IMG/VR virus record: IMGVR_UViG_3300036829_000034
Coordinates: 1-41,789 of that record
Source of the DNA: a virus
DNA: 41,789 nucleotides
Direction: 5' to 3' (one strand)
In this document: positions 18,706 through 41,789 of the stretch, piece after piece
Layout of the letters: every line of letters starts with the position of its first letter
Numbering within the stretch: position 1 is the first letter of the stretch
Program-made: the position numbers and the translations under genes
The notes under the pieces: model-generated
Database searches by the model: none
The model's input: only the letters and a program-made list of their open reading frames with translations
What the model was told of the DNA's origin: nothing

Positions 18706-18722
18706 ACCTACCCGGAGATCCC

Positions 18723-22068: not shown

Positions 22069-22166
22069 GATCCATTCCTTCCGCGCGCCCGCGTGCGGGG
22101 TGCTTCCAGTCCAGTTGACGCGCGGGAGCGGCCCGCGGTTCACCTACTCCGAAAGGAAAACCGCAC

Positions 22167-22729: not shown

Positions 22730-22732
22730 GCC

Positions 22733-23691: not shown

Positions 23692-23693
23692 CC

Positions 23694-23760: not shown

Positions 23761-23810
23761 TTCCATTTCCCGCGTTCCCGCAACCCATCCCGCATGCAAA
23801 GGAATCATCC

Positions 23811-24361: not shown

Positions 24362-24381
24362 CGGAGGGGAGGTCCCCGGCC

Positions 24382-27300
24382 ATGTCGACTGTCAGCGTCA
24401 TCTATGACCTCGTCGGCCGCGACAACGTCAGCGGCACGTTCAAGAAGGCCGGGGACTCCGCCGATGGCCTGCGCGGCACGCTCGGGACGCTCGGCAAGGC
24501 GGCCGTCGCGGCGGGCGCTGCGATCGCCGCTGGCGCGGTCGCGATCGGCGCCGAGTCCGTCAAGGCCGCGGTCCAGTTCCAGTCCAGCATGGAGAAGATC
24601 CACACGCAGGCGGGCGCCAGCCAGGGCGCGGTTGACTCGCTGACGAAAAGCGTCCTCCAGCTCGCCCCGTCCACGCAGCAAGGACCCGAGCAGCTCGCCG
24701 ACTCCCTCTATCACCTGAAGTCCGTCGGCATGGACAACGCCGACGCGATGAAAGCGCTGAAGACCGCGTCCGACCTGGCGGCCGTCGGCGGCGCGAACCT
24801 GGAGGACACCACCAACGCGCTCGCCGGGGCGTGGCGGTCGGGGATCCGCGGCGCAACGGACTTCGGCAGCGCGGCCAGCACAGTCAACGCCATCATCGGC
24901 GCGGGCAACATGCGGATGAGCGACTTTGTCGAGGCCATCGGCACCGGCATCCTTCCCTCGGCGAAGACGTTCGGGCTGTCGCTGTCGCAGGTGGGCTCCG
25001 CGCTCGCGCTGATGACGGACGAGGGCGTGCCCGCCGTCGACGCCGCGACACGGCTGCGGATGTCGTTCTCGCTGCTCGGCGCCCCGTCCGCCGCAGCGGA
25101 CAAGGTGCTGAAGTCGATCGGCCTGTCCGGGCTCCAGCTGGCCAACGCGATGCGCGGACCGCAGGGCCTCATCGGCGCGATCAGCCTGCTGAAGGACCAC
25201 CTCGACGCTAGCGGCATGTCCGCGTCGAAGCAGGCGCAGATCATCAGCGCCGCGTTCGGCGGCGGCCGGTCCAGCTCGGCGATCATGACGATGCTGAACA
25301 ACCTGGACGTGCTGGAGAAAAAACAGCAGCAGATCAACGACACGACCGGGAAGTACGGGTCAGCGGTCGCGGCGCAGAGACAGACAGCGCAGGCCCAGTT
25401 CGCCATCCTGCGGTCGTCGATCGACACGCTGGGGATCCAGCTCGGCCTGGACCTGCTGCCACCGGTGACGGCGTTCGTGAAATACCTCGCGAAGACGGCG
25501 GTCCCGGCGGTCGCGAACTTCGCGCACACGCTCAAGTCCATCATCCCTGTCGATGCGATCAAGAGCGACTTCGACAAGGCGATGTCGTGGATCGACAAGC
25601 TGTTCGGCATCGACCAGAAGCCGAAGCCGGTCACGGTGCCGGTGAAGCTCGGGCCCGTGGTGGGCGGCATGAAGGCCCAGATCTTCAACGCGCCGGTTAC
25701 GGTCCCGGCAAAGCTCGGCCCGGTCGTCGGCGGCACGAGCGCGCTGTACAACCTGCCCGCGACCACAGTCCAGGCCCGGCTGGGGCCGAAGATCGGCGGG
25801 ACAGAGCAGATCTTCAACGCGCTGCCCGGCCAGGCGAAGAAGTCCGCGAGCAACTTCGCGGACACCCTGACCAGCGCGGTCAAGAAGGTCAACTGGGGCA
25901 CGGTGTTCGCCGACGTGCTCCGCGGGGCAGTGAGCGGCGCGCAGCAGATCGGTGCGGCGTTCGTCGACTTGCTCGGGAAGATCAACTGGACGCAGGTGGG
26001 CGGAGCGGCTGCGAAGGTCATGGTCGGCCTCGTCGTCGGGATCTTCAACGGCCTCCTCCCGGCGATCCTGGACGAGGCGATACATCACCCGCTCGACATG
26101 CTCCAGTTCGTCCTGGCGCTGATCCCGATCGGGCGGGCCGCCGGGATCCTCATCGACGTGCTCGACAAGGTCCCGTTCATCGGCCCGCTGGCGAAGTTCT
26201 TCCTCGGCCCGGTCGCGAAGGTCGGGGACATGGTCGAGTCCGCGCTCGGGTCGATGCTTAAGAAGGTATTCGGCCCGGTCGCTGACCGGATCGGCGGATT
26301 TTTCAAGGGCGTCGGCTCGTGGCTGGCCGGCAAGGGCGAGTCCATCATCCTCGGCCTCTGGTACGGCGCGGAGGACGCCTGGGGAACCGTCGCCCGGTGG
26401 CTCGGCAAGTTCGGGGATTTCATCCTCGCCCCGTTCAAGGCGGCCGGGAAGTGGCTGCTCGAGAAGGGCTCGGACATCCTGTCCGGCCTGTGGGACGGCC
26501 TGAAGATCGCCTGGAACTGGGTCATCGGGTGGGTCGGGAAAATCGGCGGCTGGCTGCTCAGGCCCTACGCCAAGGCCGGAACATGGCTCCTCAGCAAGGG
26601 GCGGGACATCATCTCGGGCCTGTGGGACGGGCTGAAGGCGGCCTGGAACTGGCTCTGGTCGTGGATCACGAAGATCGGCGGCTGGATCGGCGGCGTCTTC
26701 GCCAAGGCCGGGAGCTGGCTGCTGGGTCACGGCCGTGACATCATCTCCGGGCTCTGGAACGGGCTGAAGGGCCAGTGGTCCGCCGCGTGGTCGTGGATCA
26801 CGAAGATCGGCGGCTGGATCGGCGGCGTCTTCGCCAAGGCGGGCTCGTGGCTCGTCGGGCACGGCGGCGACATCATCTCCGGCCTGAAGAACGGCATGTT
26901 CAATGCCATGAAGGACATCGGCGGCTGGATCAAGACGTATGTGGTCGACCCGGTAGTGAACGCGGTCAAGCACTTCTTCGGCATCAAGAGCCCGTCCACC
27001 GTCATGGCCGGTCTCGGCGGCCACCTGATGAGCGGTCTGTTCAAGGGGATGATGGGCGCCGACCTGACCGGCATGATCCAGCAGATCTTCGGATCGATGC
27101 CGGACGCGCTCGGCGCCATCGTCCAGAAGGGCCTCGTGTCCATCACGAGCCTGCCGTCGAAGGCGCTGGATGCGATCGGCGGACTGGCAGGCAAGGGCGC
27201 CTCGTGGCTCAGCGGCCTGCTCGGCATCGGCGGCGGCGGCGGAGGCGGCAACGCCGGAAACCAGGCGATCGGCAAGGCGATGGCCGCGGCGATGGGCTGG

Positions 27301-27807
27301 ACCGGCGGCCAGTGGACCGCGCTGCAGGCGCTGTGGAACCGGGAGTCCGGCTGGAACGCGCTCGCCAAGAACCCGTCCAGCGGCGCGTACGGCATCCCTC
27401 AGTCCCTGCCCGCGTCGAAGATGGCCAGCGCCGGGGCGGACTGGCTGACGAACGCGGCCACTCAGATCAAGTGGGGCCTCGGCTACATCGCGGCGACGTA
27501 CGGGTCTCCGGCGGCCGCGTGGGCGCACGAGACGGCCGCGGGCTGGTACGGGCACGGCGGCAAGTTCGCCGCGGGACAGCTGATCGGCGTCGGGGACCGC
27601 GGGCGCGAGCTGGTCAGCTTCGACCAGCCCGGCACCGTCCTGTCGCCGGAGCAGTCGGCGGCGGCGCTGGGCGCGCGGGCGAAGGGCGGCGACGGCCCGC
27701 TCGTCGGGACGCTGAACGTGAACCACGTGCCGGGCTTCACCAGCACGGCGGACATCGAGAACGCGCTGACCATGGCCTCGCGCCAGGTGCGCCTGGCCCG
27801 GAGGTAG
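24382..27807 (+). CDS. Tape measure protein with repeats and lytic domain
   Basis: A 1141-residue protein, GGAGGGGAGG upstream. The N-terminus (SVIYDLVGRDNVSGTFKKAG) and the alpha-helical region to about residue 330 are typical tape measure. Hydrophobic segments lie about 540-640. Trp-rich repeats follow (about 640-850; GSWLLGHGRDIISGLWNGLK type), with a period of 44 residues. The C-terminal region (about 965-1060) is a lysozyme-like transglycosylase domain (LQALWNRESGWNALAKNPSS, GAYGIPQSLP), likely catalytic Glu in NRESGW, which would open the cell wall for DNA entry. Length predicts a tail on the order of 150-170 nm. Confidence 0.92.
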   Translation: MSTVSVIYDLVGRDNVSGTFKKAGDSADGLRGTLGTLGKAAVAAGAAIAAGAVAIGAESVKAAVQFQSSMEKIHTQAGASQGAVDSLTKSVLQLAPSTQQGPEQLADSLYHLKSVGMDNADAMKALKTASDLAAVGGANLEDTTNALAGAWRSGIRGATDFGSAASTVNAIIGAGNMRMSDFVEAIGTGILPSAKTFGLSLSQVGSALALMTDEGVPAVDAATRLRMSFSLLGAPSAAADKVLKSIGLSGLQLANAMRGPQGLIGAISLLKDHLDASGMSASKQAQIISAAFGGGRSSSAIMTMLNNLDVLEKKQQQINDTTGKYGSAVAAQRQTAQAQFAILRSSIDTLGIQLGLDLLPPVTAFVKYLAKTAVPAVANFAHTLKSIIPVDAIKSDFDKAMSWIDKLFGIDQKPKPVTVPVKLGPVVGGMKAQIFNAPVTVPAKLGPVVGGTSALYNLPATTVQARLGPKIGGTEQIFNALPGQAKKSASNFADTLTSAVKKVNWGTVFADVLRGAVSGAQQIGAAFVDLLGKINWTQVGGAAAKVMVGLVVGIFNGLLPAILDEAIHHPLDMLQFVLALIPIGRAAGILIDVLDKVPFIGPLAKFFLGPVAKVGDMVESALGSMLKKVFGPVADRIGGFFKGVGSWLAGKGESIILGLWYGAEDAWGTVARWLGKFGDFILAPFKAAGKWLLEKGSDILSGLWDGLKIAWNWVIGWVGKIGGWLLRPYAKAGTWLLSKGRDIISGLWDGLKAAWNWLWSWITKIGGWIGGVFAKAGSWLLGHGRDIISGLWNGLKGQWSAAWSWITKIGGWIGGVFAKAGSWLVGHGGDIISGLKNGMFNAMKDIGGWIKTYVVDPVVNAVKHFFGIKSPSTVMAGLGGHLMSGLFKGMMGADLTGMIQQIFGSMPDALGAIVQKGLVSITSLPSKALDAIGGLAGKGASWLSGLLGIGGGGGGGNAGNQAIGKAMAAAMGWTGGQWTALQALWNRESGWNALAKNPSSGAYGIPQSLPASKMASAGADWLTNAATQIKWGLGYIAATYGSPAAAWAHETAAGWYGHGGKFAAGQLIGVGDRGRELVSFDQPGTVLSPEQSAAALGARAKGGDGPLVGTLNVNHVPGFTSTADIENALTMASRQVRLARR
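26656..26840 (+). repeat. 132-bp tandem repeat in the tape measure gene
   Basis: A stretch of 53 bases from 26656 to 26708 recurs without change at 26788-26840, an offset of 132 bases (44 codons). Related but diverged copies precede it at about 26400-26650. Such recently duplicated units can change tail length by recombination. Confidence 0.7.
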
Positions 27808-27813
27808 GTGGCG

Positions 27814-28737
27814 GTGACCACTGCATGGGCGGCCAAGGGCATCTCGTGGACCTCGGCGGCCGGGGCGACGGTCAGCCTCACCGACAGCGCGGGCGGCTAC
27901 ATCAGCACGACGGGCCGCGCCGGGTTCGGCCCGGTGGACGCGCAGATCGTCTCCGACCAGATGTGGGACGGCTCCACGCTGGTGCGCACGCACCGGGTAC
28001 AGCCCCGTCTCATGACGGTCCCGCTGTACGTGATGGGCCCGGACGCGGAAACCTACCTCGCGCGGCTCCGGGCGCTGCAGGCGACGCTGCGTCACCCGGT
28101 GGACCCGTCGACGAACCTGCCCGTTCCGGGCCGGGTCGCGGTGCAGCTGCCCGACGGGTCGCAGCGGTCCATCGCCGCGTTCTACCAGGGCGGCGCGGCG
28201 CCGACGGAGAGCGACGTCGATGACGTTGCCGCCGGCTGGTGCTCGCTGCCTAACCTGCAGTTCTACGCGCCGGTCCCGACATGGGAAGGCGACACGGTCA
28301 GCCGGACGTGGCAGCTCGCCCCCTCCTCGGCCGGGGTGCCGCCGATGCCGCCGGTGCTGCTCGGATCCGGCGCGGTCATCGGCGCGAGCACGGTCACTAA
28401 TCCCGGTGACACCGACGCCTACCCCATCTGGACGATCACCGGCCCCGGCACCGTGACCGTCACCAACAGCGACACCGGCCAGTCGTACGCGTTCACGCAG
28501 GCGATCCCGGCCGGGACGGTCGTGACCGTGGACTGCCGGCCGGTGGAACTCGCCCCGTCCACGGGCCTGACGGCGACCGACGCCGGCGGAACCGACTGGT
28601 GGCCGCACCTCGCGGATTACCCCAACTTCTGGACGCTTCCGCCCGGTGACGCGAACCTGTCCATCACGGTGACCGGCGCGACGGCAGCGAGCAGCGTCAC
28701 CGTGGAGTTCGCGCCGAGGTATCTCGGCGCATGGTAG
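27814..28737 (+). CDS. Distal tail protein (Dit-like)
   Basis: A 307-residue protein; GTG 27814 is preferred because GGAGG (27800-27804) is 9 bases upstream, while GTG 27808 would be too close. The N-domain (TTAWAAKGISWTSAAGATVS, RTHRVQPRLMTVPLYVMGPD, LRALQATLRHPVDPS) fits the phage_tail/Dit family. The C-domain (about 170-307) is a beta-sandwich (VTNPGDTDAYPIWTITGPGT, VTVEFAPRYLGAW). It forms the ring joining tail tube to tip and follows the tape measure gene as usual. Confidence 0.85.
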   Translation: MTTAWAAKGISWTSAAGATVSLTDSAGGYISTTGRAGFGPVDAQIVSDQMWDGSTLVRTHRVQPRLMTVPLYVMGPDAETYLARLRALQATLRHPVDPSTNLPVPGRVAVQLPDGSQRSIAAFYQGGAAPTESDVDDVAAGWCSLPNLQFYAPVPTWEGDTVSRTWQLAPSSAGVPPMPPVLLGSGAVIGASTVTNPGDTDAYPIWTITGPGTVTVTNSDTGQSYAFTQAIPAGTVVTVDCRPVELAPSTGLTATDAGGTDWWPHLADYPNFWTLPPGDANLSITVTGATAASSVTVEFAPRYLGAW

Positions 28738-29927
28738 TCAGCGACGAGTGGCAGGTCATCGCGCGTGACCCGGACCTGAACAGGCGCGGCTACCTGCCGT
28801 GGAAGACGCTCACCCTCGACCACCGGCACGCCGACGTGTCGAGCTGGACGCTGACGCTGCCCGCCATCCCGTCGGCGCTGTCCAAGATCGGTCCGGGATG
28901 GGGCATCATCCTGCTGCGCTACGGGCAGGAACTGCTGTCCGGCCCGCTCGAGGACGACGGGCCGCGCTCGTGGACGGCCGCTGATGACGGCGGCCCGGGG
29001 ACGCTGACCGTCACCGGCGCCGACGATCTCGCCATCGTCGCGAACGAGCTCGCCTACCCGGACCCGACGAAGAACGCGGCCGGGCAGCTGAACGGCACCT
29101 ACCAGGACACGCGGACGTCGCTGGCTGCCGAGACCGTCATCAAGCACTATGTGTCCGCGAACGTGGGCAGCACGCGGGCGACGGCCCGCGGGGACGCGAG
29201 CGCGCCGCAGGCCCGCACGGTCACTGTCGCGACGGACCAGGCGCGCGGCGATATCGTGTCGTTCTCGGCGCGGTTCAACGGGCTGCTGGACATCATCCAG
29301 ACGATCAGCCAGGCCGGGTCCAATCTCGGCGCTGAAGTCCTGCAGTCCGGCAGCTCGCTCGTGTTCGACGTGTACGAGCCGCGTGACCTGTCGGCCCGGA
29401 TGCGGTTCTCCCGCGAGTCCGGGACGCTGATCTCCGCGTCAACCACCGTCAGCATGCCGACGCTCACGCACGCCGTGGTGCTCGGCTCCGGCACCAACCA
29501 GGCCCAGGTGATCGCGGAGGTCGACGACAGCGCCTCGGCGCAGTCGTGGCGGATGATCGTGCGGCAGACGGTCGACTCCTCGAGCACGTCGGACGCCACG
29601 CAGCTGACGCAGGCAGGCCAGGCGGCCCTCACCGCCGGGGCACGGCAGTACGCCCGCGACTGCACGATCGTGGAGACGCCACAGGTGCGCTACCCGCAGA
29701 CCGTGAAGCGGGGCGACATCGTCACGATCGTCGACCCGACCCGCCCCGGCACGGTGATCACGGACGTCATCAGCTCCGTCCACATCGAGGCGGACGCCAG
29801 CGCCGGGACGCGGCTCCTGCAGTTCAACGTGGGCACCAGCACGCAGACCGCGACCGGGAACGACCTCACCGACCAGCTGACCATCGTGAAGCGGCGCGTG
29901 AACGAGCTGCAGAAAAGGACACCATGA
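28731..29927 (+). CDS. ReqiPepy6 Gp37-like tail hub protein
   Basis: A 398-residue protein whose ATG 28731 overlaps the Dit stop by 7 bases. It starts EWQVIARDPDLNRRGYLPW and TLTLDHRHADVSSWTLTLPA, matching the Siphovirus ReqiPepy6 Gp37-like family, common in actinophages and related to tail-tip hub (Tal) N-domains. Later segments include VIKHYVSANVG and VKRGDIVTIVDPTRPGTVI. It likely forms the tail tip below Dit. Confidence 0.85.
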   Translation: MVVSDEWQVIARDPDLNRRGYLPWKTLTLDHRHADVSSWTLTLPAIPSALSKIGPGWGIILLRYGQELLSGPLEDDGPRSWTAADDGGPGTLTVTGADDLAIVANELAYPDPTKNAAGQLNGTYQDTRTSLAAETVIKHYVSANVGSTRATARGDASAPQARTVTVATDQARGDIVSFSARFNGLLDIIQTISQAGSNLGAEVLQSGSSLVFDVYEPRDLSARMRFSRESGTLISASTTVSMPTLTHAVVLGSGTNQAQVIAEVDDSASAQSWRMIVRQTVDSSSTSDATQLTQAGQAALTAGARQYARDCTIVETPQVRYPQTVKRGDIVTIVDPTRPGTVITDVISSVHIEADASAGTRLLQFNVGTSTQTATGNDLTDQLTIVKRRVNELQKRTP

Positions 29928-30901
29928 GCGACGATGCATACCCGCTGCCGGGCGTCAGCGCGATGTCGACGGTCGGCCAGTGGGAGGAGTTTTTCCATCC
30001 GGCGTTCGGGTCCGGCATCATCAGCGGCGAGGGCTCGGAGATGGCGCCGAGCCTGGATTCGTCCGGCCGCAATGTCGTGATCCAGCCGGGCGGCGCGATC
30101 GTCCGCGCGTTCTACAAGCCGGTAAGCACGGCAACGTACACGCCGATCCCGGCGGCTTCGAGCCAGAACCGGATCGACCGCCTGGTGCTGCGGCTGAACC
30201 GGGCCGCGTCCACTGCGGCCAGTTTCATCGTCCCGACGGTCATCACGGGCACCCCGGCGGCGAGCCCGGCGATTCCGGCGGTCACGCAGACGAGCGGCGG
30301 CCTGTGGGACCTGCCGATCGCGCACTGGACCAGCGCGTCTAACGGGTCGCTGTCCGGCCTCGTCGACGAGCGGATGAAGATATCCAGCCCGATGGCGGTC
30401 ATGAACTCGACGGCGGGCACGCCGGTCCTGGACCGGGCGGCGCTGCTCATCCAGCCGGACACCGGCAACCTGCTCGTGTCGTCCTCGCCCGGCGGGGCAT
30501 GGAAAACCGTCTGGGTGGACGACGACTGGCAGGACGGCGGCAACGGGCTGAACGGCTGGACAGCCGCGGCTCACCCGGCGAACTACTTCATCTACAAGTT
30601 CGCCGCCCCGGGCCTGGTCGTCGCCGAGTTCAACCTGGGCGCCCCCGGCAGCACCTCGGGCACGAACGACGGCACGCAGGTCCTCGCCAGCCCGCTGCCC
30701 GCGGCCTACAGGCCGACACAAGACCGGGTGCTGCCCGCCCACACCGACTACCAGCGGATCCTGCCCAACAGCCCGTTCAGCAACAACGAGTCGTCATGCC
30801 TGCGGGTCAGCGCCGCCGGAATCGTCAGCTGCTTCGGGTTCGCGACCGCCGCGACTTTCGCCTTCGGCGGCGGCGTCTACTCGGTCGGCTCGCCCTACTA
30901 A
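29924..30901 (+). CDS. Minor tail / baseplate protein
   Basis: A 325-residue protein from ATG 29924 (ATGA overlap; AAAAGGA upstream). The N-domain (VGQWEEFFHPAFGSGIISG, then VIQPGGAIVRAFYK and NRIDRLVLRLNRAAS) is the pattern of baseplate upper/receptor-base proteins of Gram-positive siphophages, which hold a spike. The C-part is beta-rich (PANYFIYKFAAPGLVVAEF). It ends 14 bases before the tailspike. Confidence 0.78.
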   Translation: MSDDAYPLPGVSAMSTVGQWEEFFHPAFGSGIISGEGSEMAPSLDSSGRNVVIQPGGAIVRAFYKPVSTATYTPIPAASSQNRIDRLVLRLNRAASTAASFIVPTVITGTPAASPAIPAVTQTSGGLWDLPIAHWTSASNGSLSGLVDERMKISSPMAVMNSTAGTPVLDRAALLIQPDTGNLLVSSSPGGAWKTVWVDDDWQDGGNGLNGWTAAAHPANYFIYKFAAPGLVVAEFNLGAPGSTSGTNDGTQVLASPLPAAYRPTQDRVLPAHTDYQRILPNSPFSNNESSCLRVSAAGIVSCFGFATAATFAFGGGVYSVGSPY

Positions 30902-30915
30902 AGGAGACAGCAAGG

Positions 30916-33429
30916 ATGCCTTTCCCCACGGACCTGACTGTCATCACGGTTACCGCCACCTACGAGGCGATCGACGGCAGCCCGGCATCCGGCGGGTCGG
31001 TCACGTTCGACCCCGGCGGCGTCATCGCCGACAACATCGGGAAGGCGATCTTCGACAGGCCCGCCACTGTCCTCCTGCAAAACGGGACGATCAGCGTGCA
31101 GTTGCCAGCCACCGACAACGCGAACCTGAACCCGACCGGGTTCAGCTACACGGTGACGGAGAAGATCAACGGCACGACCTCCCGCGCGTACACGATCCAG
31201 CTTCCGTCCAGCCTCGGCACCACCGTGGACCTGGCCCAGCTCACGCCCGTCGCCCAGCCGCCGGCGCCCACAGCGCAGGCAGGCGGCGACCTGTCCGGTG
31301 CCTACCCCAACCCGACCGTGACCGGCACCCACCTGGCCGCGCCGCTGCCACCTGCACAGGGCGGCACCGGCCTGCCCGCCGCGGGCAGCAACGGCGAAGT
31401 CCTCACCGCTGACGGGACCGGCGGAATGTCGTGGCAGCCTGCCGGGACCAGCGCCGTCGGCGGTGACCTGACGGGCAGTCTCCCGTCTCCGGAAGTCGCC
31501 GCCACCCACCTCGCCGAGCCGCTCCCCGTTAACCAGGGCGGCACGGGCATAGCGGCGGCCGGGGCCGCGGGAACCGTCCTCACCTCCGGCAGTGACGGCA
31601 GCCTGTCATTCCAGCCTGTCTCCGGCGCGCTGATGCCCGCCGCCGTGCAGACGGCCGCCTACAACGCGGAACCCGGCGACCTCGTCCCGTGCGACGTCTC
31701 CGGCGGATCGTTCACCGTCACCCTGCCGCAGGCCCCGCCCGCCGGGACCACGGTCGCGGTCATGGTCACCGCGGCATCCGGCGGTCACATGCTCACCGTC
31801 GCCGCCCAGGGCGCAGACACGTTCAACACTGCGGGCAGCCCCGCGGCGATCACGCTGTCGGCACCATCCCAGGCCGCCACGTTCCGGTACTCCGCCGGAT
31901 TCTGGTACACGGCCGCCCGCGGGGCGGACTGGCTGAACGTGAAGTCGTTCGGCGCGAAGGGCGACGGCGTCACCGATGACACGGCGGAGATCCAGAACGC
32001 GCTGACAGCAGCCGGGAACGCCGGCGGCGGCACCGTGTACGTGCCGGCAGGCACCTACAAGACCGGCCCGCTGACGATCCCGCAGAACGTGACGCTGCGC
32101 GGTGCGGGGATCGCCGCGACAACCCTGCAGCTGGCTCCCGCCGTCTCCCAGTACGGCAACCTGATCATGAACCAGCAGCTTGCCGGCACTTCCTACGACG
32201 CCAACTGCGTGCAGGTCCGCGACCTGCGAATCGACGGCAACAAGTCAGCTATGCCAGCCGGCTGGCGGAACTGCGGCCTCGTCCTGTCGAACCGGGCCCC
32301 CAGCGGCAGCTTCGAGTACAACGACGCCCGGCACCAGGTGTCGAACGTGCTGATCCAGAACTTCACCGGCGACGGGTTCGTGCAGGCCGGGCGGGGCGTA
32401 GTGCAGGCCAGCGACGTTCAGGCGTGGGTGTGTAACGGGTTCGGGTTCAATCTCAACCAGGATTCGGAGTACGTGAACTGCGACGCCGGGAGCTGCGGCC
32501 TCGACGGGTTCATCATCCAGGGGGGCTCCAACCGGCTGACCGGATGCAAGGCGTGGTTCAGCGGCGCGGCGCTGGTGTCCGGGCGCGGCGCGGGCGCGAC
32601 GCTGCTGACCGTTACCGCGCCGCCGAACTCGTGGGACGGCGGGAACATCGCCGGCGGCCTGACGTTCAGCCTGGCGAACGGGTACGGCAACGGGTTCCTG
32701 TGGCGGAACATCTCAGGGACCAGCGTGGCCGGCAACTCCTCTGGCGGGTCTTACAGCGCGCTGGGCGCCCAGGATAACGCGCGAGCAGGGTTCCTCGTGC
32801 AGGGAGCCCGGCAGACCCTGGCCGGGATAGAGGCCGACTCCAACGGCAACTGCGGCACCACCGGCGGTGCGCCCAACGGCACCTACGCGGGGGTGGAGGC
32901 CAACTGCTCTAGCAGCATCATCATCGGCACCTGCTGGGACCGGGGTGCCAACATCAACCATCAGGGTGCCGCGTTGCGCCTGGTGTCAAGTTCCGGCACC
33001 AACACGCGCAACCGGATCCAGCTGGGTTTCTCCGGCAGTCTCAACGACTCGTCGAACATGCCGCCGCTGACCGCCGACAGTACCATCTACCAGAACAGCG
33101 TGCAGTTCCAAGGAATGGGCGGCTCGTTCCAGAACCCGTCGTTTACATCCTCCTTCACCCCGGACCCGTTCGCGGCCGAGGTGTTCGCGCCGGGCGCCCT
33201 CACCGGCAACGTTACGATCAACAACCCCGCGCTGGCCGGGACGAACACTACGGGCCTGTTCCTGGTGCCGGGCATGAAACTGACTCTCATCCTGACCCAG
33301 GACGGCACCGGTGGCCGCACGGTTACGCTCGGGGCGGCGTTCAGGCTGAACGGGAAGTCGTTCTCCACGGCAGCCGGCGCGACAACGGCGATCACGTTCA
33401 TCTACGACGGCACATCCTGGCAGGCCTGA
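30916..33429 (+). CDS. Tailspike with pectin-lyase-like beta helix
   Basis: An 837-residue protein from ATG 30916 (AAGGAGA upstream). The N-domain (about 1-110, TVTATYEAIDGSPASGGSVT) is a strand-rich attachment domain. Two linker repeats follow (GGDLSGAYPNPTVTGTHLAA and GGDLTGSLPSPEVAATHLAE, with QGGTG), typical of phage fibres. From about 340 (WLNVKSFGAKGDGVTDDTAE) a right-handed beta helix begins, as in pectate-lyase-fold depolymerases, with many N/G turns. A C-terminal beta domain ends at residue 837. It probably binds and may cut a surface polysaccharide; catalytic residues were not identified. Confidence 0.85.
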   Translation: MPFPTDLTVITVTATYEAIDGSPASGGSVTFDPGGVIADNIGKAIFDRPATVLLQNGTISVQLPATDNANLNPTGFSYTVTEKINGTTSRAYTIQLPSSLGTTVDLAQLTPVAQPPAPTAQAGGDLSGAYPNPTVTGTHLAAPLPPAQGGTGLPAAGSNGEVLTADGTGGMSWQPAGTSAVGGDLTGSLPSPEVAATHLAEPLPVNQGGTGIAAAGAAGTVLTSGSDGSLSFQPVSGALMPAAVQTAAYNAEPGDLVPCDVSGGSFTVTLPQAPPAGTTVAVMVTAASGGHMLTVAAQGADTFNTAGSPAAITLSAPSQAATFRYSAGFWYTAARGADWLNVKSFGAKGDGVTDDTAEIQNALTAAGNAGGGTVYVPAGTYKTGPLTIPQNVTLRGAGIAATTLQLAPAVSQYGNLIMNQQLAGTSYDANCVQVRDLRIDGNKSAMPAGWRNCGLVLSNRAPSGSFEYNDARHQVSNVLIQNFTGDGFVQAGRGVVQASDVQAWVCNGFGFNLNQDSEYVNCDAGSCGLDGFIIQGGSNRLTGCKAWFSGAALVSGRGAGATLLTVTAPPNSWDGGNIAGGLTFSLANGYGNGFLWRNISGTSVAGNSSGGSYSALGAQDNARAGFLVQGARQTLAGIEADSNGNCGTTGGAPNGTYAGVEANCSSSIIIGTCWDRGANINHQGAALRLVSSSGTNTRNRIQLGFSGSLNDSSNMPPLTADSTIYQNSVQFQGMGGSFQNPSFTSSFTPDPFAAEVFAPGALTGNVTINNPALAGTNTTGLFLVPGMKLTLILTQDGTGGRTVTLGAAFRLNGKSFSTAAGATTAITFIYDGTSWQA

Positions 33430-33476: not shown

Positions 33477-33632
33477 GTGGGCCGATGAGCCTTCAAACGC
33501 CGAGCTTGCGTGGCGCCTTGAGCAAATACAGGGCACGCTGAACAGCCTCGCCGGGCACCCTGAACCTCAACTCGGCGGGCGTCATCAAGTTCGGGCCCGC
33601 GCTCGACACTGACCTGTACCGGAGGGAATCAT
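33477..33632 (+). pseudogene. Broken duplicate of the 34159 gene fused to tail-fibre-like remnant
   Basis: Starting at GTG 33477, deleting the G at 33480 gives ADEPSNAELAWRLEQIQGTL, close to ADEPSSAEMDWRLREVQ... of the gene at 34159. At 33556 another shift is needed to continue TLNLNSAGVIKFGPALDTDL, a sequence resembling the end of phage tail/fibre proteins. No single open frame spans it and no stop closes it. The region 33430-33632 holds no intact gene, so it looks like a decayed duplicate or recombination scar. Confidence 0.55.
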
Positions 33633-34158: not shown

Positions 34159-34485
34159 GTGGCCGATGAGCCGTCCAGCGCCGAGATGGACTGGCGGCTG
34201 CGTGAGGTGCAGCGGATCTTGCACGATCTGGTCAGCCGCGCCGAGTATCAGGCGCGCCTGGAGTCTGCCGAGCACCGGTTCGCCGACCTCCGCGACGACC
34301 TCGGCCGCCTGGACCGCAAGCACGACGAGGATGTCAAGCGGCTGCACGAGCGGCTCGACGACCATAGCAAGGCGCATTCCGAGAGCGGCTTGTCGTGGCG
34401 GCAGATCCTGTGGCCGATGCTCGGGGCGGGCGTGGCGTCGGCCGCGGCAATCGTGGTGCAGCTGGTCTCGAGCGGAGGGCACTGA
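34159..34485 (+). CDS. Coiled coil plus C-terminal TM protein (holin-like accessory)
   Basis: A 108-residue protein from GTG 34159 (GGAAGGGAG upstream). Residues about 8-80 are a charged coiled coil (LREVQRILHDLVSRAEYQAR). Residues about 84-104 (WPMLGAGVASAAAIVVQLV) form one transmembrane helix. This is like XhlA/DUF-type haemolysin accessory proteins in lysis cassettes. Next to two lysis genes it may be a holin or holin partner. A decayed copy of its N-terminus lies at 33477. Confidence 0.65.
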   Translation: MADEPSSAEMDWRLREVQRILHDLVSRAEYQARLESAEHRFADLRDDLGRLDRKHDEDVKRLHERLDDHSKAHSESGLSWRQILWPMLGAGVASAAAIVVQLVSSGGH

Positions 34486-35805: not shown

Positions 35806-35833
35806 CGCCCCCGCCGGGTTACCGGCGGGGGCG
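35806..35833. terminator. Bidirectional terminator between convergent operons
   Basis: CGCCCCCGCCGG (35806-35817) pairs perfectly with CCGGCGGGGGCG (35822-35833), 12 bp with a GTTA loop, followed by TCTTCGCG. It ends the plus-strand late genes and, read the other way, the minus-strand translocase operon. Confidence 0.88.
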
Positions 35834-35868: not shown

Positions 35869-37923
35869 TCATGCTCCCTCTGGCGCGTGATCGGTTGGGG
35901 TGCTTTCGCCGCGCGGCGCGAGGGCCTCGTACCGACCGTCGCGGGGCTTGATGACAGGGCGGTCCGGGTGCTTTCCGCTAACGAGGTCGCTGAGGGCGTT
36001 GGTGATGGACCGGATGCCGTACGGCATGTCGCGGCCCCACTCGCCGGTGACGAGCCTGCCGGCCATGTCGATGATCTCGGCGCGCTCCATCTCGCGTCCC
36101 GCGCCCTTCAGCACCGTCCACACGGCGTCGATGCAGCGCCGCCCCTCGGGACCGTCGTCGGCGGGGACATCGGGCTGCGCAGCGGATGCGGGAGCGGGCG
36201 CAGCGGACGGGAGGAGCACTCCCCCGCCGCGCATGGCACGGTCCATTGCCTCGAGGAACTCATCCTCCAGATGCGGGACCTCCACGGCCCGGTGGCGCAT
36301 CCGGGAGGGCACGATGTCGGTGCGCATCGGGGCCTGCCGGTTGTCCAGGGTGACCGCGTAGCCGATGCCCTGCGTCGGCTCGCCATCGGGAAAGTACTTC
36401 GGCAGCGCCGCCGGGTCGGCCTGGAGTCCGACCATGCCGGCGGACACCGCGTCGCCGGTCCGCAGGGAGACGACGTTGCCGCCGACGAGCATCGACCGGA
36501 GCGCCTGGTCGCCGCCAAGCTCAGCGAGCGACGGCACCTGCGTGACCAGCCACTTGCTGACGCCGGCCTTGCGGCCGAGTTTCGCGTCGTCAGCAGTGAG
36601 CCGTGCCATCTCGGCGGCGAGCTTGGCGTTGCCGTCACCCCCCAGCAGCAGCGGCGCCTCATCGATGATCGCCATGACGATCGGAAGGCCGGTCATGCGG
36701 GCATCGAAGAACTCCATGCCCTTCGCCTTGTGGCCGTCGTCGTCCCACGTCATGGAGGCGAGGCGGCGGGACCGGTCCATCATGCCGGCGTTGAGTCCGC
36801 GAACCATGCGGACGCATTCCTGAATGCCGGAGGCGTATGGCACCTTGCCCTTCCACTGCGGGAGGGACTGGCCGTTCTGCGGGTCGAGGATGACGGGGAC
36901 GACCGGGACTTCACTGGTGATGGCCAGCCACAAGAGCAAATTCAGCAGTTCAGACTTTCCAGCTCCGCTCGTTCCGGCAATGAGACCGTGCCTGGCGCCG
37001 TCTTTCGGAACCCAGGCCCGGATCCGGACGGGCTTGCCGTCGGCGAACCGGCCGATGCGGGCGATGCCGTTCTCACCGAATCCGCTGCCATCCCATTCGC
37101 GCAGATGCTCCAGGGTGCCGGACTTCAGGATGGTGAGGATGCCGCGGGATTCGACGGCGGTCGGGTGCGGCTCGGCGTACACCTCGGTGCGGGACCGGTC
37201 GAAGGCGGAGGCAAGGGCCCGCGGTTCGTTCATCACCTGCCCGATGTGGGTTTCGACGCCGTCGAGGCGGATCTCGTACTTGCGTCCACCGGGGAAGTCT
37301 TCCCGGTCGCCGAGGGTGCCTACCCATCTGCGCTTAGCGGCAAGGCGTTCCCAGATGGCCCGGTCGCCGGTCACTTCCGGCTCCGGCTCGGGCTGCGGCT
37401 CCTGCGGGCGGGCGCGGTAGTGCTTGATCCATGCACCGGAGGCGGCGGTGACCGTGATCGCGAGCAGCGCGGGAACCGGCGCGCCGAACCCGAAGGCAGC
37501 GAGGGCAGGCAGCCATCCGAGCGTGAGGAACGCCGCGGCGTCGAACCAGCGGCGGCCGAACCCGGACAGGTGGCGGGTGCACAGGATCAGCAGGGCGGCC
37601 GCCCCGAGTCCCCCGAGGATGCCGAACAGTACCGGGTTCCTGGTCGTGTGCAGGATCTCGCCGATGACGGCCAGCCCTGCACCCCAGGCGACGGGGGGCA
37701 TCTGGCGGCGGCGGCGCCACGCGCCCGTGCGGGCGAGCATGTCGTTCGTCGCGGCTGCCGGGTTGGGTGCCCTCCCTGCCTGCCCTGCCTGCTGAATCTC
37801 CAGCTGGCGCATCATCTCGATGGCCTTGCGTCCGCGGACCTGGACAACCTGCGGCTGCGGTGCGAAGGCGGGGGACCTGCCGCGCCGCCAGCGCGGGATC
37901 TCACGCGTTTGACGGCGCGGCAT
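35869..37923 (-). CDS. FtsK/SpoIIIE/TraB-type DNA translocase
   Basis: A 684-residue minus-strand protein. The basic N-terminus is followed by two to four membrane helices (about residues 77-165). A connector leads to the motor domain with Walker A GTSGAGKS (317-324) and Walker B VMAIIDEAP (416-424). The C-terminal region (about 590-665) looks like a winged helix (CIDAVWTVLKGAGREMERAE and later). This order (membrane, ATPase, DNA-reading wing) is that of TraB/TraSA proteins that move double-stranded DNA between mycelia in Streptomyces plasmids and AICEs, and of FtsK. It is the last gene of a six-kb minus operon. A chromosome-segregation or host-takeover role is the alternative. Confidence 0.85.
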   Translation of the reverse strand: MPRRQTREIPRWRRGRSPAFAPQPQVVQVRGRKAIEMMRQLEIQQAGQAGRAPNPAAATNDMLARTGAWRRRRQMPPVAWGAGLAVIGEILHTTRNPVLFGILGGLGAAALLILCTRHLSGFGRRWFDAAAFLTLGWLPALAAFGFGAPVPALLAITVTAASGAWIKHYRARPQEPQPEPEPEVTGDRAIWERLAAKRRWVGTLGDREDFPGGRKYEIRLDGVETHIGQVMNEPRALASAFDRSRTEVYAEPHPTAVESRGILTILKSGTLEHLREWDGSGFGENGIARIGRFADGKPVRIRAWVPKDGARHGLIAGTSGAGKSELLNLLLWLAITSEVPVVPVILDPQNGQSLPQWKGKVPYASGIQECVRMVRGLNAGMMDRSRRLASMTWDDDGHKAKGMEFFDARMTGLPIVMAIIDEAPLLLGGDGNAKLAAEMARLTADDAKLGRKAGVSKWLVTQVPSLAELGGDQALRSMLVGGNVVSLRTGDAVSAGMVGLQADPAALPKYFPDGEPTQGIGYAVTLDNRQAPMRTDIVPSRMRHRAVEVPHLEDEFLEAMDRAMRGGGVLLPSAAPAPASAAQPDVPADDGPEGRRCIDAVWTVLKGAGREMERAEIIDMAGRLVTGEWGRDMPYGIRSITNALSDLVSGKHPDRPVIKPRDGRYEALAPRGESTPTDHAPEGA

Positions 37924-37933
37924 GATGGCCTCC

Positions 37934-39118
37934 CTATTCCTGGTAGAACGGCTTGGCGGCGGCTTGCACCGGCGCGTTCTTGTGAGCCTCGCTGAGACCC
38001 GCGTGACCGCGCTTGAGGGTCGCCTCGACGTTGCCGGCGGACTCCAGGACGCGCTGGTCGGCCTTCACGGCGATCTCGCTGGCCTCCTGGACGGCCTGGT
38101 GCGCCTTCGCCGCCGCGGCGTGGGCGTCGAGGTGGTCGACCATCGCGGACTGCGTCCCCGGGTCGACCTCCAGGCCGTCCATGGCGTCCGCGAGCTGCGC
38201 GGCGGTCCTGCTGGCGCTGGCGGCCTCGTTCGCCCGCGCCTCGGCCTGCTGGCTGGCGGCGGCGGACTCGACGGCGGTGTTCTCGGCCTGGGCCTTGGCG
38301 GCGGTCATGTTTCGCAGGACGCCGTCGTAGGTGACATCTGCGGTTCCGGTGGGCATTGCTTCTCCTCTGGGTGATGGTGACTGCACCGGGGCGGCGGTTT
38401 CCGTCCCGGCCGGCTTGTCTTCTGGCTTCGCGGCGGTCGCGTGGCACGGGCAGCCGCATCCGGGGGCGTTGCAGGACGCGTGCTGACCGGCGTGCTCGTC
38501 GGCCGGCGGCCCCGGCTCAAGCGGCGGAGCCGGCCTGACTGACACCTCCAGATCCGGGTCGGCCGAGGCTGCGGCGAGACGGCGCTGCAAGTCCTCGGGG
38601 TCGTAGACGGTCGCCCGGTCGAAAGACTCGCCCGTGAGCGGGTTCACCTTCCGGCCGCTCTTACTGCGGGCCGTCAGGATCACAGGGAACGTCCTGCCTT
38701 CCCCGCTGTCTGCCTTGTGCTGCGCCGGCGCAGGACCGTCTGTGTTGTCGACGGACCCCGGGCGGACGAACGTGTAAGTGTGGGACGTGCCCGGGGCCCG
38801 GCGCCACCGCGGGTCCTCCTTTATCGGCTGCTTCGCCCGCTGCCGGGCTGCCTTGCTCTGTTCCTGCGCCTGCCTTCCCGCGTTCCATCCGGCGGACAGG
38901 CCGTGACGGGCGACGGGGAAGCCGTGGGCCAGCTGCCCCGTCCAGTAGCCGATGTCGTGGCCGGCGGCGAGGGCTACGCGCTTGCTCTTCGGCGCGTTCG
39001 GGTAGCGCTGGTCGGCGCTGGCCGTGTAGGCGGCTTTCGACTTGCTGTAGCCGTTCTTCGCGTCCTCCCAGGCTTTCTTGAACGCGTACATGATGAGCAG
39101 GATGCTGATGAGTTCCAT
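37934..39118 (-). CDS. Hypothetical protein, N-terminal hydrophobic segment and coiled coil
   Basis: A 394-residue minus-strand protein from ATG 39118. It starts with a short hydrophobic stretch (LISILLIMYAFKK), a Lys-rich helix, and a Gly/Ala region (HDIGYWTGQLAHGFPVARHG). The middle has VNPLTGESFDRATVYDPEDL and a Cys-rich spot (CNAPGCGCPCH). Residues about 260-390 form an Ala/Glu coiled coil. It lies next to the translocase and resembles spread-type accessory proteins of actinomycete transfer operons by layout only. Confidence 0.6.
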   Translation of the reverse strand: MELISILLIMYAFKKAWEDAKNGYSKSKAAYTASADQRYPNAPKSKRVALAAGHDIGYWTGQLAHGFPVARHGLSAGWNAGRQAQEQSKAARQRAKQPIKEDPRWRRAPGTSHTYTFVRPGSVDNTDGPAPAQHKADSGEGRTFPVILTARSKSGRKVNPLTGESFDRATVYDPEDLQRRLAAASADPDLEVSVRPAPPLEPGPPADEHAGQHASCNAPGCGCPCHATAAKPEDKPAGTETAAPVQSPSPRGEAMPTGTADVTYDGVLRNMTAAKAQAENTAVESAAASQQAEARANEAASASRTAAQLADAMDGLEVDPGTQSAMVDHLDAHAAAAKAHQAVQEASEIAVKADQRVLESAGNVEATLKRGHAGLSEAHKNAPVQAAAKPFYQE

Positions 39119-39120
39119 GG

Positions 39121-39531
39121 TTAACCGCCGATTGTCTTAACGTTGCCGACGCCGTGCCGGACGTTCGCAGGGACGCTGTTCAGCGCCGGGATGGAGGAGA
39201 TTCCCGCGACCAGGCAGGCGGCAAGGGCGATGGCGATGTACATCGTCCGGGCGCTGGCGCCCTTGCGCGGGTGAAGGTCATGGATGAACACGATGCCGAG
39301 CACGATGACGAGCACGCCCGGAAGCGCGACGCCGAACGCCTTCCCGGCAAGGCCGCCGAGCAGTCCGGACACGATGCCCACCCCGTGGCCGAGCAGATTA
39401 CCGAACAGGCCGCCGGTCACCGCGCATGTGCCGATGAAGGCGAGGATGGCGCGGGCCTTCACGAATACGCCGAGCCAGTGGAAGACGACGGCCACGACGA
39501 GGCAGGTGGCGCCGATTGCGAGAACGGACAT
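39121..39531 (-). CDS. Multi-pass membrane protein (Spd-like)
   Basis: A 136-residue minus-strand protein from ATG 39531. Four membrane helices are likely (about 4-24, 28-46, 52-84, 96-113; for example LAIGATCLVVAVVFHWLGV and GVALPGVLVIVLGIVFI). The end is polar. Small multi-TM proteins beside a TraB-like gene are typical spread (Spd) proteins of Streptomyces plasmids. No sequence-specific motif proves this. Confidence 0.6.
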   Translation of the reverse strand: MSVLAIGATCLVVAVVFHWLGVFVKARAILAFIGTCAVTGGLFGNLLGHGVGIVSGLLGGLAGKAFGVALPGVLVIVLGIVFIHDLHPRKGASARTMYIAIALAACLVAGISSIPALNSVPANVRHGVGNVKTIGG

Positions 39532-39537
39532 GACAGG

Positions 39538-39966
39538 TCAACTCCAGTGCCAGATGACAAGCGCGAGGATTGTCGCGCCGATGAGACGGAGCGGAGTCTT
39601 GGTGACCCACTCCAGGCCGTTGAGGACGGACTTGATGAAGATCAGGTGGAAGTAGCCCCACGCCAGGCGCATGCCCTTGAACAGGGGGACGCTGTGGCGG
39701 TCCGCGGCCTCGTGGTGCTGCTCACGGGCCCGGGCCAGGGTAGGGGGCTGGGCATGGACGAGGGAGCCGGGACGGTCCAGGGCCGCCGCGGCATGGCTGA
39801 GAATCTGACGCGGTGCCTGGACACGCCGGGTGACTGGCAGGAGGGAAGCGGGCGCAGCCGGCGGTGTATCCTCACGCGCGCACGCGCGCGCGGGCGCAGT
39901 GGATTCCGGGGGCGGCGCGACGGCAGTTGCGCTGCCTTCCTTCCCTTCCTCGCGGACTGTTGTCAC
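39538..39966 (-). CDS. C-terminal membrane-anchored protein
   Basis: A 142-residue minus-strand protein from GTG 39966. The N-terminal half is Ala/Pro/Glu-rich and disordered and includes a slippery CG-rich repeat in the DNA. The C-terminal part (SVPLFKGMRLAWGYFHLIFI, then PLRLIGATILALVIWHWS) holds one or two membrane helices. It fits the family of small membrane proteins in transfer operons. Function unknown. Confidence 0.58.
   Translation of the reverse strand: MTTVREEGKEGSATAVAPPPESTAPARACAREDTPPAAPASLLPVTRRVQAPRQILSHAAAALDRPGSLVHAQPPTLARAREQHHEAADRHSVPLFKGMRLAWGYFHLIFIKSVLNGLEWVTKTPLRLIGATILALVIWHWS
39873..39892. repeat. Alternating CG-rich tract
   Basis: Twenty bases alternate pyrimidine and purine (CACGCGCG then CACGCGCGCGCG), within the gene at 39538. 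Such tracts can take Z form and are slippage-prone. Confidence 0.8.
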
Positions 39967-39972
39967 TGAGGG

Positions 39973-40251
39973 TCATCGCCTTCCTGCGTCGAACTTGCCC
40001 CGGTCAATCGCCTGGGCGAGTGCCGCAAGGTACTCGGTTGCCTCATGGATCAGGCGTGCCGCCTGCCGCCGGTTCACTTCCTGGCTGTAGCCGAGCGGCA
40101 CCCGGCGCCGCGCCAGCAGCGAAACCGACGAGCGGAACCAGTCGTAAGCCACTGCGAGCCGGTCCGCGTCGGTGCGCGCCGCGGCGAACTCGCGGGCACG
40201 ACGCGCCTTGTGCGCGGCGTTCCGCATCTCCCATGAACCGCGGCGGGGCAT
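39973..40251 (-). CDS. Hypothetical basic helical protein
   Basis: A 92-residue minus-strand protein, ATG 40251. It is Arg/Ala-rich and helical (RNAAHKARRAREFAAARTDA, then VNRRQAARLIHEATEYLAAL). No known domain. The start overlaps the preceding gene's stop (TAATG). Confidence 0.55.
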   Translation of the reverse strand: MPRRGSWEMRNAAHKARRAREFAAARTDADRLAVAYDWFRSSVSLLARRRVPLGYSQEVNRRQAARLIHEATEYLAALAQAIDRGKFDAGRR

Positions 40252-40475
40252 TACTCGGCCCTCACCTTCGCGAGCTGCTTCGACTTACCCGCGTCACGCG
40301 CCACGATCTCGAATTGCCCCCAGAGGCCCTTGTCCCAGCGCCTAGCCTCGAGCCAGCCCTGGAGCCGCTTCTGCAGCCACTTCAGGTCTTCGGGGTCGCC
40401 GTGGGCCTGGAACTCGTCCAGGGGTCGGTCCCTGCGGACCACTTCGAGATCAAGTGGCATTGCGCGGTTCGTCAT
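40251..40475 (-). CDS. Hypothetical 74-residue protein
   Basis: A minus-strand protein, ATG 40475, starting with ATGA overlap. It is charged and Trp-rich (DLKWLQKRLQGWLEARRWDK, LWGQFEIVARDAG). It may be a small DNA- or protein-binding partner of the cassette. Function unknown. Confidence 0.55.
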   Translation of the reverse strand: MTNRAMPLDLEVVRRDRPLDEFQAHGDPEDLKWLQKRLQGWLEARRWDKGLWGQFEIVARDAGKSKQLAKVRAE

Positions 40476-41152
40476 CCGTCCTCCCTGAGTGCGGTGCCGT
40501 TCACTGACGCCACCGGCTGCAGGTGTGGCGCGACCAGCTCAGCCACCCTGGGGCGGCTCAGGCCGAATGCGGCAGACAACTGCCGCTGCGAAATCGGCTC
40601 GCCCTGGCAGTCGCGGGCATGTAGCCACATCTGGATAGCGGATTCTTCCGCAGTTGAGGCGATGTGATGGGAACACGGATTCGTGTCCATCTCGCTGTCA
40701 TCCTCGTCAGAGGCTTCCGTATTCGTTTGGCCACCCTGGCCACCCTGGCCCGACGTGGCGACCTGCGCTTTCGCCCACCGCTCCAAGGTGAACGTAGCCA
40801 CCGCGAAGCTGAGCGCGGGCACCGCGTACCACCCGGCAGCCAGATAGCCGTGAGAGATCCCCGCCTCGTAGTTCGCGAACAGCGATTCGAGCATGCCCAG
40901 GCCGATGCCGAGCCACCCCCACCTCGCCGCGGCACCGGTGGCCGTCATCAGCACTACCGATCCGACGACCATCTGCCCGTCAACGCCGAACGGCATCAGG
41001 TGGCCGGCCATCGCCGAGCCACCCAGCGCCAGGGTGAGGGCATCGATGTGGGTGTAGCTGACCACTCCGGCCACGCTCGCGACGGCCGCCAGCGCAGCCC
41101 CGGCGATGATGCGGGGGAACTGCTGCCGCAGCCACTCCAGGACGTCGCTCAC
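40472..41152 (-). CDS. DUF2637-like membrane protein with C-terminal HTH
   Basis: A 226-residue minus-strand protein from GTG 41152. Residues about 14-125 give four membrane helices, including the family-like segment VVSYTHIDALTLALGGSAMA followed by MPFGVDGQMVVGSVVLM. This is the DUF2637 pattern, widespread in actinomycete AICEs and plasmids beside tra genes. A polar linker (about 135-165) leads to an HTH (about 178-205, QRQLSAAFGLSRPRVAELV). It would be a DNA-binding membrane protein, perhaps tethering the element to the transfer site. Confidence 0.72.
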   Translation of the reverse strand: MSDVLEWLRQQFPRIIAGAALAAVASVAGVVSYTHIDALTLALGGSAMAGHLMPFGVDGQMVVGSVVLMTATGAAARWGWLGIGLGMLESLFANYEAGISHGYLAAGWYAVPALSFAVATFTLERWAKAQVATSGQGGQGGQTNTEASDEDDSEMDTNPCSHHIASTAEESAIQMWLHARDCQGEPISQRQLSAAFGLSRPRVAELVAPHLQPVASVNGTALREDG

Positions 41153-41454
41153 TATGCCACCGCCCTCTTCACGCGCCGCCGCTCCCGCTCCGACATGCCG
41201 CCCCAGATGCCGAAGCGCTCACCGTTGTCGAGCGCGTACTCAAGGCATTCCGCCCGGACCAGGCAACTGCGGCAGATCCGCTTGGCCTCCCGGATTGAGC
41301 CGCCCTTCTCGGGAAAGAACGCCTCCGGATCCGTGTACTGGCATTCGCCGAACGCCTGCCATGGCAGGCCGGGTTCAGGCTCGGTCAGCGCCTCAGCGGC
41401 GATCAGCGGGTCGGCCGCGCCGGGGCTGAACTGGAGGGAGATTCGGTTCTTCAC
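41152..41454 (-). CDS. WhiB-family transcription regulator
   Basis: A 100-residue minus-strand protein from GTG 41454. The four iron-sulphur cysteines are C38, C61, C64 and C70 (FGECQYTD, ICRSCLVRAEC) and the family turn GIWGG is at 82-86, followed by a basic C-terminus (SERERRRVKRAVA). WhiB proteins are actinobacteria-specific [4Fe-4S] regulators that bind sigma factor or DNA. Phages and mobile elements of actinomycetes often carry one. It precedes the membrane protein gene by TAGTG overlap and could control this cassette. Confidence 0.9.
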   Translation of the reverse strand: MKNRISLQFSPGAADPLIAAEALTEPEPGLPWQAFGECQYTDPEAFFPEKGGSIREAKRICRSCLVRAECLEYALDNGERFGIWGGMSERERRRVKRAVA

Positions 41455-41651
41455 GCCGTCGCCCCAGTACCCGCGGTCGTGACGCTTGTCCCGGCCAGGA
41501 AGGGGCGGCCCGCCTCGTGCTCGACGATGATCATCGTGCCGCCGGGGCCGGCCTGGACGGACCAGTTGATGCCGGGCGTGTCGGCGTGGGCGCGGGTCCA
41601 GCGGGACATGTCCTGCCTGGTGTTGATGTGCGTGACGAAGGTGGGGTTCAC
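41451..41651 (-). CDS. Hypothetical 66-residue protein
   Basis: A minus-strand protein from GTG 41651 (GTGA overlap with the next gene out). It is beta-rich (TFVTHINTRQDMSRWTRAHA and TMIIVEHEAG) and short. It might be a small regulator partner. No motif recognised. Confidence 0.5.
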   Translation of the reverse strand: MNPTFVTHINTRQDMSRWTRAHADTPGINWSVQAGPGGTMIIVEHEAGRPFLAGTSVTTAGTGATA

Positions 41652-41789
41652 GCCGGCACCTTGCTCAGTCCCCGCAGCTCGGACAGCAGCGCGCGGGCGT
41701 CAGACTCGCGATAGCGGCGATGGCCGCCCGCGGTGCGTACGGCGGCGATCTTCCCGGCGTCAGCCCAGTCCTTCAGGGTGCTCCGCGGC
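41648..41789 (-). CDS. BldC/MerR-like HTH protein (partial)
   Basis: The last 46 codons of a minus-strand protein whose start lies beyond the window. TLKDWADAGKIAAVRTAGGH and RRYRESDARALL match the recognition helix and wing of BldC-type MerR-like proteins, which bind tandem direct repeats and control development in Streptomyces. It is the first visible gene of the minus cassette and could regulate it. Confidence 0.8.
   Translation of the reverse strand, partial: PRSTLKDWADAGKIAAVRTAGGHRRYRESDARALLSELRGLSKVPA

Follow-up and report, generated by a model that had tools for sequence, protein, structure and literature searches.

A TraB-type translocase operon in a tailed-phage genome and its kinship with plasmid and plasmid-phage transfer proteins

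IMG/VR virus record IMGVR_UViG_3300036829_000034, analyzed here over its entire length of 41,789 bases (hereafter the window), carries the genes of a tailed phage together with a compact operon built around a TraB-type DNA translocase. Four other phages share much of this operon, and its motor is kin to the transfer proteins of plasmids and plasmid-phages. Passages of PMC4170104 report that Streptomyces conjugation needs a single plasmid protein, the FtsK homologue TraB, a hexamer that recognizes the 8-bp repeats of clt and transports DNA in double-stranded form. Spreading is the task of the spd genes, and a membrane protein, SpdB2, both binds DNA and interacts with TraB. We consider it moderately probable that the cassette represents this transfer operon of mycelial actinomycetes in a phage-borne form and would pump phage DNA across septa and between hyphae. 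Phages of hyphal bacteria face cross-walls, and a plasmid-type pump would allow a prophage to colonize a whole colony without lysis; it might also carry host DNA between strains, again without lysing them.

The motor is a 684-aa TraB-type translocase of the FtsK family encoded on the minus strand at 35869-37923, an assignment that draws on motifs, profiles and structure models. Its domain order runs from an N-terminal membrane part (hydrophobic segments at residues 96-117 and 138-156) through an alpha domain (approximately 184-270) and a RecA-like motor to a C-terminal winged helix (approximately 591-670). Walker A (GTSGAGKS) begins at residue 317, and Walker B (IIDEA) occupies residues 419-423. 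The top curated family was NCBIfam plasmid_TraB (2.8e-15); Pfam FtsK_SpoIIIE scored 25.3 bits in one search and 23.2 in another, the cut-off being 24. The first structure model was poor (mean pLDDT, or predicted local distance difference test, of 43), but in it residues 183-271 could be matched to the alpha domain of FtsK (2ius_A, Z 10.0, root-mean-square deviation 3.0 over 83 residues). The C-terminal winged helix was modeled with a pLDDT of 73-90, and in the first model the matches to this tail were winged helices of a generic kind, with none peculiar to FtsK or TraB. A second model, built from seven sequences, reached a mean pLDDT of 55, and Foldseek related it to FtsK motors and to the conjugation protein TcpA of pCW3 (E ~1e-10). 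Thus the parts expected of a TraB-type motor were found: an FtsK-type RecA-like motor with both Walker motifs, an FtsK alpha domain, N-terminal membrane segments and, as a modeled feature, a C-terminal winged helix. The original prediction, made from the letters of the window, had proposed just such a membrane-anchored motor with a winged C-terminus. A TraB profile from five phages also matched the annotated TraB of plasmid pSM17B, with 5.6e-8 for the pair. A role as packaging ATPase was rejected, as the window has an ordinary large terminase.

The motor gene belongs to a set of ten minus-strand genes (35869-41788) separated by successive gaps or overlaps of 10, 2, 6, 6, -1, -4, -1, -4 and -4 nt; the set converges with the late genes on the plus strand, as had been predicted. 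Beside traB, at 37934-39118, lies a gene for a 394-aa protein whose C-terminus bears a conserved motif. Its family profile is related to that of an approximately 400-aa protein found near plasmid TraB-like genes, in PhiNon1 and two Streptomyces linear plasmids (E 1.6e-5), and did not match the approximately 400-aa protein of PhiNon1 by itself. A short hydrophobic stretch at its N-terminus is visible by eye only, no segment exceeding the threshold. The next gene (39121-39531) encodes a 136-aa membrane protein with three hydrophobic segments, which is Spd-like by position and topology only and shows a weak profile similarity to a 133-aa protein of PhiNon1 (E 0.001, probability 20%). Several small Spd-like membrane proteins had been predicted; the 136-aa protein fits that description, and no other cassette protein below 200 aa has a hydrophobic segment above threshold.

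The remaining cassette genes, all on the minus strand, comprise three small conserved genes and a regulatory end. Proteins of 142 aa (39538-39966) and 92 aa (39973-40251) have counterparts in viral relatives, the latter at 52-62% identity in three of four. The 74-aa protein (40251-40475) is the most conserved of the small cassette genes (63-75% identity); a search of viral contigs with it also gave one 16-residue match, which was not counted. Then follow a DUF2637-type membrane protein (40472-41152), assigned from Pfam and its hydrophobic segments and bearing a C-terminal region that looks like a helix-turn-helix (HTH) by eye, and a WhiB-family regulator (41152-41454) whose match of 2.7e-25 confirms the predicted WhiB protein. 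A 66-aa open reading frame (ORF) at 41451-41651 has no family, and no counterpart was found in the relatives. The final gene (41648-41788), cut at its 5' end by the contig end, is the one predicted to be BldC-like; it has MerR and HTH_17 matches and would encode a MerR/BldC-like HTH regulator. Its only match in the relatives was a short one elsewhere in G002.

Sharing among viruses sets the operon apart from a chance assembly of genes. Three scans of IMG/VR with the window TraB or its alignments gave relatives in 2 of 29, 4 of 87 and 7 of 120 stretches, for a set of seven contigs besides the window (G001-G007); two scans of genome_contigs gave none among 115 and 61 candidate stretches. The four close contigs, G001 (17.6 kb), G002 (105 kb), G003 (62 kb) and G004 (51 kb), have TraB proteins 60-67% identical to that of the window, and all four carry counterparts of TraB and of the 394-, 136-, 142- and 74-aa genes. 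The 92-aa counterpart was found in G001, G003 and G004 and not in G002, the WhiB counterpart in G001, G002 and G003 and not in G004. The window DUF2637 gene found a counterpart by BLAST only in G004, and profiles placed DUF2637 genes after TraB in G002, G003 and G004; in G001 the gene occupying this position did not match DUF2637. Gene sharing of this extent across four contigs is more than chance. G004 is probably a complete circular phage genome carrying the operon, because it has a 127-bp end repeat (circle length 50,855 bp); it also has a tyrosine integrase. The more distant G005 (TraB 31%) carries a serine recombinase and head genes judged by eye from ORF starts, and no Pfam family was recognized in the ORF holding its TraB match. 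G006 (TraB 27%) carries a terminase, a DUF2637 gene and an integrase-like gene.

The phages sharing the operon are differently built. Their large terminases fall in different families: phrog_19179/phrog_9 for the window, phrog_9 for G004 and G006, phrog_979 for G001, phrog_38 for G002 and phrog_2 for G003. The operon of G001-G004 precedes the terminase at a distance of 4.6-12.4 kb and has the same orientation; that of the window is inverted and placed behind the late genes. Portal, protease and capsid genes of the window and G004 are 33-44% identical, compared with 60% for TraB. Structural genes group the window with G004, and the TraB tree groups it with G001-G003, with a support of only 85/76; that tree also drew a long-branch warning (pSLE1, a Micromonospora protein and pSM17B TraB), only 6 of its 15 inner branches being well supported. 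Because head and packaging genes diverge more than TraB, the operon looks like an old portable module moving among actinophages, a reading for which tree support is modest. The original prediction had also offered a recent fusion of a phage with an actinomycete integrative and conjugative element (AICE), which is not supported. The cassette matches the phage part in G+C content (0.6946 and 0.6964, respectively), its tetranucleotide value (0.150) falls within the range of 30 same-sized windows of the phage part (0.118-0.198), and other phages contain most of the operon. Recent insertion, of which the composition bears no trace, was rejected on that ground.

With tblastn, the window TraB matched 118 of 72,556 plasmid records, all below 60% identity and mostly (104) from Streptomyces, and none of 50,697 catalogued phage records at E<=1e-5; the TraB of G002, searched at E up to 10, met 55 phage records with a best E of 0.2. 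The plasmid relatives sit in operons, one of which has annotated traA and traB. Annotated DUF2637 genes lie near TraB in six of nine plasmid stretches (pSLE1, S. coelicoflavus and Micromonospora being those without), and three Streptomyces plasmid stretches have WhiB, DUF2637 and a 400- to 455-aa gene beside TraB. Neither the small proteins nor DUF2637 and TraA gave a convincing match when compared with PhiNon1 or pSM17B. In the literature, among titles and abstract openings from a collection that leaves out most subscription journals, none was an account of this operon in phages.

As we infer it, the operon would be expressed in a quiescent prophage or plasmid state, in which a membrane-anchored TraB ring would use its winged-helix tail to dock at a site of the phage genome. 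Across cross-walls and where hyphae touch, the ring would then pump phage DNA that is double-stranded and unprocessed, with the membrane proteins (136 aa and DUF2637 type) and the 394-aa protein as helpers and the WhiB and MerR regulators in control. Such an element could colonize the mycelium without lysis and still retain virion production.

Several observations weigh against a transfer operon of this kind. The window TraB is 25-32% identical to four aligned plasmid or plasmid-phage versions, and because it scores 55.9 bits where 800 are required, it falls by sequence outside the plasmid_TraB equivalog as a TraB-type relative. Its fold matches have TM-scores of 0.21-0.26 by query length (top 19) and large root-mean-square deviations. 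The predicted DUF2637-like protein of the window matches at 18.1 bits, under the cut-off of 22.8; the counterparts in G002, G003, G004 and G006 exceed that cut-off. Among plasmids, the 142-aa protein had no match at E 0.01 and the 74-aa protein none. No clt-like cluster of short repeats was seen in the window in tests that included the TRS and KOPS motifs, and over-represented octamers led to no docking site, although the sequence that this TraB recognizes is not known; the plasmid sps palindrome was not in excess (5 matches against 6.9 expected). As for a quiescent state, neither an integrase, a serine recombinase nor ParA (AAA_31 profile) was found in the window, whose ends are cut. An actinobacterial host is likely for the window phage because the matches to its terminase (1,987 of 50,697 phage records) are led by Streptomyces phages, at 34-38% identity.

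Of the other explanations, the one that survives best holds that the motor acts inside one mycelium only, segregating DNA in the manner of FtsK/SpoIIIE through closing septa into compartments or spores, without transfer between colonies. The fold and parts are the same as those of FtsK, and published spd-type genes act in intramycelial spread, one of them in stability (passages of PMC4170104). Moreover, ParA (AAA_31) was not found in the window or G001-G004, and therefore another stability device could be needed. Segregation of this sort nonetheless remains an unlikely sole function, given that the relatives sit in plasmid operons, including the one with annotated traA and traB, and that the top family is the transfer protein plasmid_TraB and not FtsK. 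A second explanation would make the motor an accessory of the lytic cycle, clearing or moving host or phage DNA during infection or interfering with host FtsK. Phages with distinct FtsK-like proteins do exist (in Mycobacterium phage LittleE and others, whose matches to the G002 TraB have E 0.2 or weaker), and in G001-G004 the cassette runs in line with the terminase. In the window, however, a hairpin separates the cassette from the late genes, which lie on the other strand, the single phage FtsK-like protein on the tree groups apart, and the catalogued phages lack a TraB match at E<=1e-5; we judge this explanation improbable. Last, that the cassette is a separate neighboring element or an assembly chimera, as the cut end genes, the lack of an end repeat and the differing position and orientation might hint, is very improbable, because four other contigs, among them the one with the 127-bp end repeat, also carry the operon alongside phage genes, and the composition of the cassette matches that of the phage part. 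The findings named beforehand as fatal to the original prediction did not materialize: homologues are not confined to virulent phages at the same place, since their positions differ and plasmids have relatives too, and no separate neighboring element was seen: the phage genome of G004, in which the operon is embedded, appears circular.

A broader proposal, which we put forward tentatively and rate a little short of an even chance, is that several unrelated actinophage lineages absent from cultured collections carry a portable TraB operon as a standard module, which spreads their lysogens or plasmid forms through and between mycelia. If this is true, there would be a hidden class of phages that moves by two routes and is adapted to multicellular hosts. 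An operon common to differently built phages also constitutes a defined, testable module, and its conserved 74-, 92- and 142-aa proteins are new candidates for spread functions still unexplained in Streptomyces plasmids.

Apart from the cassette, the window carries phage genes. A gene is cut at each end, and no end repeat was found. Family searches of 28 plus-strand ORFs showed that a tailed-phage gene set fills 3196-35782; the predicted combination of a phage tail and a plasmid-type motor is therefore present. RecE-like, RecT-like and RusA genes fall within this interval, and a glycosyl-hydrolase-25-like protein, with a family score below its cut-off, lies towards its end. A replication-initiation gene (8424-9122) contains origin-like palindromic repeats at 8870-8906, with three exact matches to ACGCGNTANTAACG, both strands counted. 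The large terminase subunit (12538-14196) was assigned from its family match and phage context, and portal, protease/capsid, connector, tape-measure and minor tail genes follow at 14386-29927 by family matches. A single 907-aa ORF (15941-18664, plus strand) joins a head-maturation protease (residues 21-212) to the major head protein (residues 408-905), which are separate genes in G004. At 26328-26895, a repeat of 132 nt (44 aa) occurs four to five times within the tape-measure gene. The tail-region protein at 30499-33429 (plus strand) has a pectate-lyase-like domain (PF12708, 8e-19), and its called start appears too early. Two small adjacent ORFs, possible paralogues, share a 39-nt stretch that is 79% alike (33480-33518 and 34161-34199). 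A hairpin of 12 G-C pairs (35806-35833) lies where the late operon and the cassette converge and is likely a two-way terminator. A strong terminator had been predicted here; the hairpin is present, but it has a weak T tail, and the region does not exceed shuffles in its number of terminator-like sites (2 found against 2.4 expected).

Other features were noted in the relatives. Directly after traB, G001 has an actinobacterial IHF gene (L002:5482-5805; NF041260, 2.6e-32), and an IHF-like ORF follows TraB in G002 by eye. In G004, five tandem copies of the 13-nt CATGATGCCCGCG, the last diverged, form an iteron-like array at approximately 20344-20408 (L026:344-408), at the end of a replication-initiator-like ORF; its phrog_9 terminase match is divided between two adjoining ORFs (713-2571), and its 74-aa gene lies on the opposite strand. 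G003 encodes a head-maturation/morphogenesis protein with an ADP-ribosyltransferase-like C-terminal part (L023:3838-6081; phrog_3895) and has a weak phrog_9 match outside its terminase gene. In G007, a 151-kb viral contig (L039), the distant TraB match is split over two frames.

Among known systems, the best plasmid match to the window TraB is NZ_LT559120.1, PhiNon1, which is plasmid III of Nonomuraea gerenzanensis and whose annotation includes terminase, portal, protease, capsid and tail tube. PhiNon1 is described as occurring in a circular form and also integrated at a tRNA-Val gene, and as reminiscent of pZL12, in passages that leave its transfer genes undiscussed (PMC5431353). Its TraB falls in the same clade as that of the window (98/97), its DUF2637 gene is followed by genes of 74, 150, 133 and 396 aa before TraB, near the window in lengths and order, and three of its phage head and tail proteins match window proteins at 29-33%. 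On the other hand, its TraB is only 31-32% identical to that of the window, the 92-aa counterpart is missing, and a minus-strand gene interrupts the row; its 74-, 150- and 396-aa proteins and DUF2637 have no convincing sequence match in the window, and PhiNon1 integrates (passages of PMC5431353), whereas no integrase was found in the window. The plasmid pZL12 is described as a phage with conjugal transfer that requires a tra locus, and pSLE1 is reported as homologous and syntenic with it (passages of PMC4487206). Both PhiZL12 and pSLE1 resemble the window as phage genomes with a tra locus, and in pSLE1 a TraB-like gene lies approximately 1 kb before the terminase with two small genes between. 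The pSLE1 TraB, however, is only 25% identical to that of the window, and ParA/ParB are reported in both plasmids (passages of PMC4487206). Of the features that mark plasmid-phages of this type, the window has phage structural and packaging genes and, at the sequence level, a transfer locus; as to plasmid replication and partition, a replication-initiation gene was found, and ParA, by one profile, was not.

More distantly, the window TraB clusters with Streptomyces plasmid transfer proteins. The tra operons of pSV2, pPZG101, HUAS 15-9, AM 2-1-1 and pSM17B have a similar gene order, made up of a regulator (WhiB in four of the five, or GntR), DUF2637 and a TraB-like motor; three of the five also have a 400- to 455-aa gene. 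They differ in that the stretches compared have no annotated phage genes, in a TraB 28% identical to that of the window (two aligned) and in the GntR regulators that three of them have annotated next to the operon. AICEs of the pSAM2 type likewise use a single FtsK/TraB-type motor; by the definition in passages of PMC3218068, membership was rejected for the window on its 41,789 bases, in which neither a tyrosine or serine integrase nor Prim-Pol was found, the ends being cut. The window also has a full tailed-phage gene set. The predicted transfer module holds for the motor and its related Streptomyces plasmid operons and is not supported for AICEs. The translocases of Mycobacterium phages, such as that of LittleE, share with the window an FtsK-family ATPase in a phage; the LittleE protein has 442 aa, phage matches to the G002 TraB reach E 0.2 at best, and on the tree it groups with a plasmid FtsK-like protein, apart from the window clade. 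A phage with conjugal transfer functions is already known in pZL12, and a cultured strain holds PhiNon1, a plasmid-phage of similar gene order; the window extends this little-studied class of plasmid-phages. Added here is an operon largely common to five IMG/VR phages, including small conserved proteins without assigned function.

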